Positions 10,412 to 44,718 of a stretch of 64,000 nucleotides of DNA are shown piece by piece; positions within the stretch are counted from its first letter, which is position 1; each line of letters opens with the position of its first letter. Made by a program: the position numbers and the translations under genes. Below the pieces are notes generated by a model. It had not been told where the DNA came from and did not search any database. It saw only the letters and a program-made list of their open reading frames with translations. Source of the stretch: Fimbriimonadaceae bacterium (GTDB lineage Bacteria; Armatimonadota; Fimbriimonadia; Fimbriimonadales; Fimbriimonadaceae); NCBI GenBank assembly GCA_019638775.1, contig JAHBTD010000001.1, forward strand, positions 682,001 to 746,000, given 5' to 3'.

Positions 10412-10818
10412 CCGAGCGAATCTCAAAAAAATCTGAAGTTAAGCAGCCGACCTCAAGGGGAGGAATCCGCCTCTCCCTTGAGGTCAGCACCACATAACTA
10501 CGCAAGGATGGATGAGATTGTGAACGCAGTGAACAGCCCGAGAGCCATTCCAATCTCCAATCCACAATCCACAATCCACAATCTACAATCTACAATCTAC
10601 AATCTACAATCCCCGCGCGACGGGAATCGAGCGGATTTCGTTCGACTCCCGTCCCGTTTTATCCACAATTCTGCCGGGCAGGTCCTGGGTTCGGGCCTAA
10701 GCTGTGGTAAAGTCTAAGCGTAGGAGTCACCACGGACTGGTGGAAACGGAGGTCGGGATAAGGAAGTCCCCTCCCACTCTTCTCTCCTCTTCCTTGCTTC
10801 AAGTAAGCTTCTCGCGAC
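10412..10818 (+). other. 407-nt gap: terminator-like hairpin, heptamer repeats, structured leader
   Basis: Three things are visible. A strong hairpin at 10449-10485 (GACCTCAAGGG and CCCTTGAGGTC arms) closes the preceding gene but has no T-run. A run of ATCCACA/ATCTACA heptamers covers about 10549-10610. From 10703 to 10774 several complementary segments can form alternative hairpins ahead of the gene at 10819: GTGGT with ACCAC, CACCA with TGGTG, and GGAG-GGGA with TCCC-CTCC. No protein gene is convincing in this stretch. Confidence 0.5.
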
Positions 10819-12382: not shown

Positions 12383-13859
12383 ATGGGCTCCAACCGTCGC
12401 GAGCGCGGCCCTGCTGTTTCTCGCCTTCCCTCCCGTCCACCTCAAGGTCTTCGTGTTCATCGCTGTCGTCCCCTGGCTCTACAGCCTCACCAAAGAGGAC
12501 GCCCGATACGCAGGCCGCTCGGGATTTCTTTTCGGCTTCCTCGTTGGGCTCAGCCAGCTTTACTTCATCCCAAAACTGGCAGTCGATTGGACCGGCAGCG
12601 TCGCGCTCAGCATCATTCCATACATCCTTGCGTGCATCGTTTACGGCCTCTATCACGCCGTCCTCGGTAGAGTTCTTTGGTCGGCAATCCAAAGCAAGCA
12701 GCTTTGGCTGCTGCCCCTAATCTGGACGGGTTGGGAAGTCGCCCGTTCCTACATCCCCGGTCTGGCCTTCCCTTGGAGCATGCTCGCAACCCCCCTGTAC
12801 GACTCCCCCAACCTCGTCCAGCTCGCCTATTTCGGCACCGTTTACGCCGTCAGCGCATGGGTCATGATCGCCAATGTCCTTGTGACCAAGATCTTCCTCG
12901 GAACGCATTTCACCCGCCTAAGAAGCTGGTACGCAGTCTTCATTTTGCTATTCGCCGCAAGCATCATCCGCGCAAACATGCCCCAAGAAGGCACGGTAAC
13001 CACGTTCACCGCCGGGCAACCGGGCGTCAACATGGCGTTCACCTCCCAAGACGGCCAAGACTCTGCCTTCGCCTCCATCGTTCCTGTCTTGGCTGAGGAG
13101 GCCAAAGCTCAAGGATCAAAGCTGCTCATCCTCCCCGAAGGGCTAGTGCTCGGCGGCGACGGGATCCCGCCCGAAACATCTTTCGAAGTCCCCCGCGACA
13201 TGCCCCTCATTTTTGGCGGCAAGCGCGGCACCAACCCCGCACACCAGGCTGCGTTCGCTTATGACGGAACGTGGAGCTATGCCGACAAGACGCGTCTTGT
13301 CCCCTTTGGCGAGTACGTTCCAGGAAGGGCGATCTTCCCCGGAATCGCTACCGTTTTCAAACTTCCCGACGGCGACATTGTCCCCGGCAAAAAAGTGAAA
13401 GCCGTAACTGTCAACGGCCTAAAAGTCGGCGCGCTATTGTGCTTCGAAGGGCAGTTCCACGACGTTGCCCAAGCTCAGGCCGATGACGGCGCCCAGGTCC
13501 TCGCGGTGATGTGCATTGACGATTGGTACTTCGGAACGTCCGCCCCCGAACAGCTAATGAGCGCGTCCATCTTCCGCGCCATCGAAACCGGCCTGCCCGT
13601 CGTTCGTGCCTGTGGCCTCGGTTATTCGATAGGGGTGGATCAACGCGGGGAGATCATAGCCGACGCGCCTCTTGGCAAACTCGCAGCCCTCAAAATCGAC
13701 GTGAAAGTCCCCGAAAAGACAACGCGCTTCCCCCTCGTGCGCCTCTTCCCTTGGCTCGCATTCATCTGCTTCGCCGGGTGGCTTCTCGGCGGTAGATGGC
13801 TCAGCAGAATGCTGCTTGGAAAATCAGTATCTGAATCTGAACCTAAGTCTGATTTCTGA
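12351..13859 (+). CDS. lnt: apolipoprotein N-acyltransferase
   Basis: A 502-residue membrane enzyme that adds the third acyl chain to lipoproteins. The N-terminal third has about six hydrophobic segments with the family stretch WEVARSYIPGLAFPWSML. The C-terminal nitrilase domain carries the expected triad: Glu in LPEGLVLGG, Lys in DKTRLVPFGEYVPG and Cys in GALLCFEGQFHD. A last membrane segment precedes the C-terminus. The start is a TTG inside the preceding gene, with AGGAGAAG about 10 nt upstream. This enzyme fits the several lipoprotein signals in the window. Confidence 0.93.
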   Translation: MKETLKARIGKWAPTVASAALLFLAFPPVHLKVFVFIAVVPWLYSLTKEDARYAGRSGFLFGFLVGLSQLYFIPKLAVDWTGSVALSIIPYILACIVYGLYHAVLGRVLWSAIQSKQLWLLPLIWTGWEVARSYIPGLAFPWSMLATPLYDSPNLVQLAYFGTVYAVSAWVMIANVLVTKIFLGTHFTRLRSWYAVFILLFAASIIRANMPQEGTVTTFTAGQPGVNMAFTSQDGQDSAFASIVPVLAEEAKAQGSKLLILPEGLVLGGDGIPPETSFEVPRDMPLIFGGKRGTNPAHQAAFAYDGTWSYADKTRLVPFGEYVPGRAIFPGIATVFKLPDGDIVPGKKVKAVTVNGLKVGALLCFEGQFHDVAQAQADDGAQVLAVMCIDDWYFGTSAPEQLMSASIFRAIETGLPVVRACGLGYSIGVDQRGEIIADAPLGKLAALKIDVKVPEKTTRFPLVRLFPWLAFICFAGWLLGGRWLSRMLLGKSVSESEPKSDF

Positions 13860-13980
13860 TAGCCGATTGCCGATTGCTGATCGCTGATAGCTGATAGCCG
13901 ATAGCCGATAGCCGATAGCCGATAGCTGACCCTTTACGATCTTTACAACCCTTACAATCCTTACAACCCTGACAATCCTT
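13857..13980. repeat. heptamer and nonamer short tandem repeats
   Basis: Directly after the lnt stop codon come about nine 7-nt units of the type GATTGCC/GATAGCC/TGATAGC, then 9-nt units TTACAACCC/TTACAATCC. The same TTTACGATCTTTACAAC string occurs again near 34876. No coding potential is evident. Confidence 0.85.
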
Positions 13981-13981
13981 C

Positions 13982-14068
13982 TGGCGGAGAGAGAGGGATT
14001 CGAACCCCCGGGGCTATTCACCCAACGGTTTTCAAGACCGCCGCATTAAACCGCTCTGCCATCTCTCC
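13982..14068 (-). tRNA. tRNA-Ser(TGA)
   Basis: An 87-nt class II tRNA including an encoded CCA end. Acceptor arms GGAGAGA and TCTCTCC pair, the discriminator base is G, the T-loop carries GGTTCGAATCC, the variable arm is long as in serine tRNAs, and the anticodon loop CTTGAAA gives anticodon TGA, reading UCA. It is not tRNA-Sec: the anticodon is TGA rather than TCA. Confidence 0.95.
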
Positions 14069-14214: not shown

Positions 14215-14763
14215 CTAAGCTTTCTCTTTGAGGAGCAGTTCGATCGCTCGGTCAACCTCGGCATTGGCCAAGTCGACAACGCGAACGATTCCCTTGCGGT
14301 CGATCACCACGTAATCAGGGTAAGAGTCGCACCCGAAGGCTTTCATAAGCTCGCCGGGCTCGTCAAAGGCGATCAAGAAAGGAAGTTTATTCTCCTCAGC
14401 AACGACTCTGCCCTTGGCGGTGTCTTTGTCGGAGTGGACTCCAATAAGGACCAAACCTTGGTCCTTGTAACGTGCATGCAGCTCCTTCAGGTGCGGCATG
14501 GACGCCTTGCATGGGCCTCACCAATGAGCCCAGAAGTCCAGAACGATGACCTTGCCCTTAAGGCTCTCCCATGTGGGAGCTTTCTCGGTCGCGTTCATCC
14601 ATTCCTTGATGTTGAGTTTTGGTGGCGCTTTGCCTTCCCATCCATTCTTAACCTCGTCCGTCTTTCCGCCTCGTTCACGTTTGAAGTCGTCAGAAGATTG
14701 AGCGATCAAGACCGATGCGAACGCGAATACACCACAAATCAGGATTGCGATTTTGCGTCCCAT
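14215..14763 (-). CDS. TlpA-like thioredoxin-fold protein, candidate selenoprotein (UxxC)
   Basis: Reading through one in-frame TGA (14518-14520) gives a 182-residue exported thiol-disulfide protein. It has a signal peptide (MGRKIAILICGVFAFASVLI), a TlpA-type lead-in (GKAPPKLNIKEW, KGKVIVLDFWAHW), then TGA-G-P-C at residues 82-85. The fold continues with SMPHLKELHARYKDQGLVLIG and the cis-Pro region YPDYVVIDRKG. TGA thus replaces only the attacking cysteine of the WCGPC motif. The start is chosen for the signal peptide; TATAAT lies 15 nt upstream. It would act as a periplasmic reductase or isomerase. A nonsense mutation or base error is the alternative, but the intact frame on both sides and a SECIS-like stem-loop argue for selenocysteine. 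Confidence 0.8.
14476..14499 (-). promoter_or_regulatory. candidate bacterial SECIS of the TlpA-like gene
   Basis: Counting from the base after the TGA, positions 19-42 form a stem with two symmetric mismatches: AUGC-C-GC-A-CC, loop UGAA, GG-A-GC-U-GCAU. The loop G is the second loop base and lies 30 nt after the TGA, matching the known rule for bacterial SECIS elements (G among the first two loop bases, about 16-37 nt away). Confidence 0.6.
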
Positions 14764-15220
14764 AACAGATTCATTATAGGGCAATCGGAGAAATGGCGAA
14801 CTGCAATCGGCGATCAGCAATCAGCAATCAGCAATCGGCAATCAGCGATCGGCAATCGGCGATCAGCGATCAGCGATCAGCGATCAGCGATCTACAATCT
14901 ACAATCTCCAATCCACAATCTACAATCTACAATCCAAGGTTGCCTCTCCTCATGTACTCATCACTTATCTTCGTCACTCATCGTCTCCCCAGCAATCGGC
15001 AATCCAAATTCCAAAATCCAAAATCTTAGACCCTCCCCCTTGATGGGGGAGGCCGTGAGCGCAGCGAACGGGGAGAGGGTGACGAGTACCGGCAAGCCAT
15101 GGGAAATACAATCAGCTACTAATTCAGGTCCAATCCCCATTACGCAAAACTAAGCCCACCCCCACCATGCAAGGGCACAAGCCGAAGGATCAGCCTCCCA
15201 ACTTATCGTAAACTAACCCC
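14764..15220. repeat. 457-nt gap filled with heptamer repeats and a palindrome
   Basis: About 14797-14940 is a mosaic of 7-nt units that drift through AATCGGC, AATCAGC, GATCAGC and TACAATC/TCCAATC. A second short CCAAAAT/CCAAATT run is at about 14996-15026. A perfect palindrome built on CCTCCCCCTT follows at 15032-15052. No gene is seen. Confidence 0.85.
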
Positions 15221-18389: not shown

Positions 18390-18613
18390 AAGAGGTACGA
18401 ATTTTGGATTTTGGATTGCCGATGCCGATCGCTGATTTCGGATTTTGGATTTTGGATTTTGGATTGCCGATGCCGATTGCCAATTGCTGATTTCTGATCG
18501 CTGATAGCCGATAGCCGATAGCTAATGCCCCTTACAACCCTTACTCCTTACAATCCTTACGGCCCCTGCAAACACCTATACATTTCTCTACCGTCTTGGC
18601 TATAATTGCTCCC
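18390..18613. repeat. heptamer and nonamer repeats
   Basis: Runs of TTTTGGA (about 18400-18465), GATTGCC/GATAGCC (about 18466-18520) and TTACAACCC/TTACTCC-type units (about 18530-18560) lie between the divergent SPFH and DUF2786-like genes. The last 50 nt before 18614 are free of repeats and probably hold the promoter. Confidence 0.75.
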
Positions 18614-20887: not shown

Positions 20888-21065
20888 GGGGGCGGCGATC
20901 AGCGATCAGCGATCAGCTATCGGCTATCAGCTATCAGCGATCAATGCTCTTCCGGAGTTTCACGCCGAGTTCACAGAGAACACAGAGTTTTGGCAGACGT
21001 TGGGAATCTAACCTTACAACCCTTATGCCTTACAATCCTTACCTCTTACTCGCACGACGCTTCGA
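20888..21065. repeat. heptamer, CGC-type and nonamer repeats
   Basis: GATCAGC/TATCAGC heptamers (about 20892-20942), a TTTCACGCCGAGTTCACAGA stretch of the widely seen 'cgc-aga' type, and TTACAACCC/TTACAATCC units (about 21012-21042) fill the gap between the convergent DUF4127 and TPR genes. Confidence 0.75.
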
Positions 21066-43563: not shown

Positions 43564-44022
43564 CCTGCAGGGAGGGCAACGCTCTGTCGTTGCCGTATGC
43601 GATCCCTCCATAACTAACCCTGCTGGGAGGGCAACGCTCTGTCGTTGCCGCGATCTGATCCCTCCATAACTGCAGTTATGGAGGGTACTTTTTATAATTG
43701 CCCGGCTACAGTACCCCTGCTTGTCTCGACGTGGACAACGAGGAAAGAAGTATAGATTCTCATCCCTCCAACCGCTTGCGGTGGAGGGTACAGCCATCTT
43801 CAAAAAGATTTGGTCAAGAGCCTTGCCTGCGTCTCTCGCGTACGCCTCACTCCCGACTATTCACACCCAGCCCCCCGCTACTCACGACTCAATTCATCCC
43901 TCCAACCGCTTGCGGTGGAGGGTCTATCGAACCTCAGAAAGAGATCACCCAGCTCCCCGCTACTCACTACCCACTACTCACTACCCACTACCCACTACTC
44001 ACTACCCACTACTCACTACCCA
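43564..44022. repeat. 459-nt gap: palindromes and CACTACC heptamers
   Basis: Two copies of GGGAGGGCAACGCTCTGTCG / TTGCCG (GGCAACG/CGTTGCC palindrome), a perfect 24-nt palindrome on CCTCCATAACTG (43661-43684), two CCTCCAACCGCTTGCGGTGG elements, and a tract of about ten CACTACC/CACTACT heptamers (about 43967-44041, running into the end of the next gene). Confidence 0.85.
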
Positions 44023-44718
44023 CTACTCACTACTTACTACCCTCACCAACTTCACCCGCAGAGTATAGGTATCCCCCGAACCCCCCGGCATCTCCACACC
44101 CTTCGCGCTCATCGTGATCGAATTCGGAATACAAGAATCCTCCGGGAAAACTGCCTCGCCCTTTGCCTCAATCCCTTTAGCCCACCCCGAATCGCTCATC
44201 GCCACAGCGCACCTAAAAGTCTTCTTCTCTTTGTCCCAAACGCCCGCCGAAAACTCCAACCGCGTCACCTTCGGCGTATCAGCCTCCTCGATCGTGCGCT
44301 TAAAAGCGCTGCTCGCGTTCGGCCCAAACCGATCGGGACACAGGAAATCCACCAATTGATTCAGCCTCTGTTCCTGCTGCTGCCGCCCACCCTCCACGAG
44401 CTTTGTCCGAAGTCCATAAGGGTCCACCGTATATTGCTCAATTAACGGCTCAAGCCCCGGCGGCATTGGAACGTCAACCTCACCGATCTTGTTGCCCGTC
44501 ATCGTCCGCTTCGATTCGATAGCGAATGAACCCTTCAACCGCTCAAGGACTTTCTTCTCGACACGATAGGTGAAGGACTGCTCTAGTTCTCCGGTCTCCG
44601 AATCCAAAAACTCCTCGGTCACCGTCGAGACCCACGTCTCGCCTTTGGTCAAAGGAAGCGTATCCTGAGCCGGGGTTGGCAGGCCAAGAATGGCAACGGC
44701 AATAGCTGCAACCAGCAT
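44023..44718 (-). CDS. exported protein of unknown function
   Basis: 231 residues with a signal peptide (VAAIAVAILGLPTPAQ). The mature part is beta-rich (TWVSTVTEEFLDSETGELEQ ... YTLRVKLVRVV) with no motif I recognise. The start abuts the stop of the DivIC-like gene (shared base at 44718), so it is part of an operon with that gene and pyruvate kinase. Its 3' end is inside a CACTACC heptamer tract. Confidence 0.6.
   Translation of the reverse strand: MLVAAIAVAILGLPTPAQDTLPLTKGETWVSTVTEEFLDSETGELEQSFTYRVEKKVLERLKGSFAIESKRTMTGNKIGEVDVPMPPGLEPLIEQYTVDPYGLRTKLVEGGRQQQEQRLNQLVDFLCPDRFGPNASSAFKRTIEEADTPKVTRLEFSAGVWDKEKKTFRCAVAMSDSGWAKGIEAKGEAVFPEDSCIPNSITMSAKGVEMPGGSGDTYTLRVKLVRVVSSE

Follow-up and report, generated by a model that had tools for sequence, protein, structure and literature searches.

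A tlpA/resA-like gene with a predicted selenocysteine at its active site in a Fimbriimonadaceae bacterium

A TGA-interrupted thioredoxin-like gene and its surroundings

The window analyzed here, a 64,000-nt stretch of a Fimbriimonadaceae genome, contains on its minus strand a 182-aa frame closed by TAG whose translation meets a single internal stop, a TGA in the context ...VLDFWAHW-U-GPCKASMPHL... (Table 1). Under the standard code this frame would be split into one piece that ends at 14518 and a 94-aa ORF (14499-14215). Standard gene calling cuts the gene at its active site, so that the protein would be missed or mis-annotated. A preliminary description made from the DNA alone had proposed a TGA at residue 82 of an otherwise undisrupted TlpA-like frame and the same two fragments if the gene were called at this codon. 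Translation bears out its coordinates and residue number, a TlpA frame left intact except for one TGA, and the split. Well over 100 TGA-interrupted frames of 45 + 45 codons are found in the window, and only this one was recognized with a thioredoxin-like active-site motif. We judge this match to be beyond chance because the orthologues detected in a search of 201 genomes, at 41-65% identity, also hold exactly one TGA each.

A tRNA-Ser gene on one side and a repeat tract on the other flank the gene, which stands alone; the position of the tRNA-Ser gene next to it may be a coincidence. Heptamer tandem arrays are found at 14795-14934, 13858-13926, 10551-10611, 18401-18519, 20895-20943, and 43947-44042, with units such as GATTGCY/GATCGCY, CAATCTA, GATAGCC, and similar ones, and many of them lie between larger ORFs; GATTGCYGATYGC has 23 matches with at most one mismatch versus 0.7 expected. 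A TATAAT hexamer seen by eye at 14773-14778 on the minus strand, nine bases 5' of the ATG, was not reported by the promoter scan; it would place the transcript start near the start codon, which would mean a leaderless mRNA. A comparison of the window with nine genome regions of 12 kb and five further loci found no conserved gene neighbor.

Table 1. Features of the locus, in coordinates of the window
Feature	Position	Strand	Basis or remark
tlpA/resA-like gene, predicted selenoprotein	14215..14763	-	182 codons + TAG, one in-frame TGA
Hydrophobic N-terminal segment, putative signal peptide or signal anchor, MGRKIAILICGVFAFASVLIA	14701..14763	-	by eye
TGA (UGA) codon 82, predicted Sec, first position of UxxC in W-U-G-P-C	14518..14520	-	TGA conserved in orthologues
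TGC codon 85, Cys of U-G-P-C with a predicted resolving role	14509..14511	-	invariant in alignment
Candidate bacterial SECIS hairpin spanning nt 12-49 past the UGA, with UGAA as apical loop (nt 29-32)	14469..14506	-	folding and covariation
Pro149 (in SYPDYVVID)	14317..14319	-	invariant in alignment
tRNA-Ser (tga anticodon)	13982..14068	-	directly downstream of the predicted selenoprotein gene and on its strand

The read-through product is predicted to adopt a thioredoxin fold

Pfam searches with the read-through product matched Redoxin (PF08534, 2e-21) and AhpC-TSA (PF00578, 2.6e-20) over residues 58-167, spanning the TGA, and an AlphaFold2 model from a 10-sequence alignment with Cys substituted for Sec showed a thioredoxin fold with a mean pLDDT of 87.6. 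The solved structures closest to this model are ResA, DsbE-like, and DipZ C-terminal domains (best Foldseek match 4nmu, E 2.2e-12). The product thus has the Redoxin/AhpC-TSA domain, the (C/U)xxC motif, and the conserved Pro of the superfamily; Pro149 lies where thioredoxin folds have their conserved cis-Pro. The best NCBIfam match is the ResA subfamily with 72.5 bits against a curated cut-off of 170 (NF002854), and DsbE (TIGR00385) likewise stays below its threshold (50.6 versus 123.15 bits). Because these scores are far under the curated cut-offs, we file the protein neither as ResA nor as DsbE. The model shows a helix at residues 4-19, within the N-terminal hydrophobic segment, and this segment suggests that the mature protein would reside outside the cytoplasmic membrane.

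Conserved TGA and selenocysteine machinery in related genomes

Homologues were searched in 201 genomes, i.e., the bacterium's own and those of 200 relatives, which revealed a clear gap separating close orthologues from the TlpA background at large, and a profile search over 291 genomes of the phylum recovered the same orthologue set. The gene with its TGA is present in 11 Armatimonadota genomes including the one studied here, with two copies in one of them (G004), as well as in three MAG contigs labeled Planctomycetota (L050, L051, and L052); the contig scan back-translates Cys, so that TGA loci are under-sampled by it. Wherever it is present, the TGA sits in a W-U-G-x-C motif, which agrees with the preliminary assignment of this codon to the nucleophile position, and the Sec/Cys pair aligns exactly at residue 82 when homologues with either residue are compared. 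Cys forms were found in G006 (L025/L130), inside the ingroup, and further out in G214 (L138). In a phylogenetic tree, the Cys protein of G006 is nested in the Sec clade (94/87 with L023; 90/92 for the clade).

The four genes named in the preliminary description as a check on its reading, selA, selB, selC, and selD, are all present in the genome, with matches to SelA (422 bits), SelB (377 bits, over its cut-off), SelD (358 bits), and tRNA-Sec(UCA) (70.8 bits; SeC(tca) in ARAGORN). The selD gene (L018; G000:C3:202514-203419) has an in-frame TGA of its own (...NCAGUASK...), and the selenophosphate synthetase that it encodes is probably a selenoprotein itself. Across the 10 other genomes with the TGA, tRNA-Sec is over its cut-off in all 10 and SelB and SelA are found in nine each; the missing SelA match concerns G035, a 74% complete assembly in which SelB and tRNA-Sec are found, and the missing SelB match G096, an 88% complete one with SelA and tRNA-Sec. 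G006, at 99% completeness, lacks SelA and tRNA-Sec as well as any SelB match above the cut-off, and TGC stands at this codon of its orthologue. Because its protein lies within the Sec clade, the simplest reading would be a single event in which Sec changed to Cys together with the loss of the machinery. Since SelA occurs in 142 of the 291 genomes of the phylum, we take the association of machinery and TGA, drawn from ca. 12 genomes and one in-clade Cys orthologue, to be informative but not by itself decisive.

A candidate SECIS hairpin follows the UGA

To assess a possible SECIS, the folding of the 51 nt that follow the UGA was set against synonymous-codon shuffles, which preserve both the encoded protein and the codon usage of the gene. 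The gene's own sequence folds with -16.3 kcal/mol versus a shuffle mean of -9.2 kcal/mol (z -2.38, p 0.02), a modest result alone, and the mean z is -2.27 in 15 Sec orthologues versus -0.43 in 30 Cys TlpA-like sequences (Mann-Whitney p 7e-6). In the helix of nt 12-20/41-49, 72.6% of cells are paired versus 31-48% in slid registers, a figure that leans in favor of this helix since its register was picked after the folds had been inspected. The same helix has 17 cells changed on both sides versus 4-8 in slid registers and a covariation of 0.337 versus 0.10-0.15. Its double changes include G-C to U-A at 15/46, G-C to A-U at 19/42, and C-G to G-C at 18/43, and such compensatory changes would be hard to obtain from protein constraint alone.

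When the 50-nt fold of the gene's own sequence was compared with dinucleotide shuffles, the z of only -0.56 was uninformative, and RNAalifold found no consensus structure over the 15 sequences because three of them (L024, L027, and L029) form another hairpin, which is shorter, and further ones deviate in their details. This shorter hairpin has 6-7 bp (nt 11-17/24-30) and a 6-nt loop, and we take it to resemble the mini-hairpin of E. coli fdhF.

Readings of the UGA codon

Translation table 11 has TGA as a stop codon and other genes here terminate with it, as would be expected if a nonsense mutation had truncated a TlpA gene and left a pseudogene. However, the codon is shared by 10 other Armatimonadota genomes and three Planctomycetota-labeled MAGs and always is the nucleophile codon. 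Furthermore, differences among five close orthologues over the 33 codons after the TGA (0.224/0.103/0.376 at codon positions 1/2/3) indicate that coding constraint persists beyond it, and with selection maintained downstream we consider a pseudogene exceedingly improbable. An error of sequencing or assembly at a true TGC or TGT would be just as surprising: while the window is known from a single assembly and one base change would restore the Cys, the TGA is found at the same codon in independent assemblies that include a single-contig genome of 5.23 Mb (G061).

If UGA were reassigned to Trp or a different amino acid, or read through non-specifically, translation would likewise cross the codon, but the genome has tRNA-Sec and the SelA-SelB-SelD set, homologues show Cys and never Trp at residue 82, and three orthologues (L023, L024, and L027) themselves terminate with TGA, which leaves this reading next to no weight. 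It is also conceivable that the locus makes two functional products, a short 5' one and a C-terminal one initiated at the ATG at 14499 where the 94-aa ORF begins, and partial termination at the UGA under selenium limitation is plausible. Yet, this split would cut through the thioredoxin core at its active-site helix, with loss of the active site, and the start Met is replaced by Val in several orthologues, so that we regard two functional products as extremely unlikely.

Judging from its sequence, the frame is almost certainly the gene of a TlpA/ResA-type thiol-disulfide oxidoreductase, predicted to be exported, in which Sec replaces the nucleophilic Cys of CGPC. The machinery and the hairpin can be seen in the sequence itself, and from them we infer that SelB and Sec-tRNA(UCA), aided by the coding-sequence hairpin just past the UGA, would decode UGA82 as Sec. 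As the fold and its invariant UxxC suggest, the selenolate of Sec82 would then attack a substrate disulfide and Cys85 would resolve the mixed selenosulfide. Its most likely role would be in the envelope, reducing or repairing disulfides in general.

Relation to known selenoproteins

The preliminary description had regarded UxxC thioredoxin-like selenoproteins as an established class, and they are indeed catalogued: Table 1 of PMC13188914 lists a Prx-like thiol:disulfide oxidoreductase (PF00578, UxxC/UxxU), a thiol-disulfide isomerase-like protein (cd02966, UxxC), and a Redoxin family protein (PF08534, UxxC), and PMC2398784 describes a "Trx-like 1" family (COG0526, UxxC). Because UxxC selenoproteins of PF00578, PF08534, and cd02966 have thus already been catalogued, the UGPC protein is a further member of this known class, with which it shares the PF00578/PF08534 families, the UxxC motif, and one Sec at the nucleophile. 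ResA, CcmG-DsbE, and TlpA (4nmu, 1su9, 2b1k, and 1jfu) have the same fold and active-site position but carry Cys first in their CxxC where the UGPC protein has its predicted Sec. Other thioredoxin-fold families with Sec-containing members are the ResA-like WAxxUGC selenoprotein NF041054 and the TUGYCR redoxin NF053656, which our protein matches far below their cut-offs (41.9 versus 300 bits and 20.2 versus 100 bits, respectively) and whose motifs are UGC and TUGYCR, not UGPC.

Going by the descriptions of the catalogued entries, the Armatimonadota clade, with its W-U-G-P-C and E-G-K-x-P-P motifs, may be a separate subfamily. Our search of the open literature found no paper describing Armatimonadota selenoproteins, and "selen" is absent from the main text of the Fimbriimonas ginsengisoli genome paper (PMC4072686). 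It is conceivable, though we lean slightly against it, that the Armatimonadota/Planctomycetota clade forms a distinct uncatalogued subfamily, marked by two SECIS architectures (a long hairpin spanning nt 12-49 and, at nt 11-30, a short one of 6-7 bp whose loop has 6 nt), Sec-to-Cys reversion upon loss of the Sec genes in one lineage, and a two-Sec fusion with Thioredoxin_7 (L051 and L052). As a compact natural contrast, the clade sets UGA with a hairpin in the presence of Sec genes against TGC without hairpin excess after their loss.

Additional selenoprotein candidates

The same genome contains a second selenoprotein candidate (L143; G000:C1:1200549-1200989), a frame of ca. 388 residues with a C-terminal TlpA-like domain bearing W-U-G-P-C, and its relatives L042 and L047 also have the TGA; this second TlpA-like UGPC family shows no hairpin excess against synonymous-codon shuffles (z +0.6 to +1.2). 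In two of the Planctomycetota-labeled MAGs, the TlpA-like W-U-G-P-C domain runs in frame into a C-terminal Thioredoxin_7 domain (L052:2263-3303 and L051:639-2537, both on the plus strand; PF13899 matches of 4e-14 and 2.8e-12 for the pair) with the motif P-W-U-G-Y-C or P-W-U-G-W-C. From their sequence, these two would be double-Sec fusion proteins and as such more unusual than the single-Sec UGPC gene.
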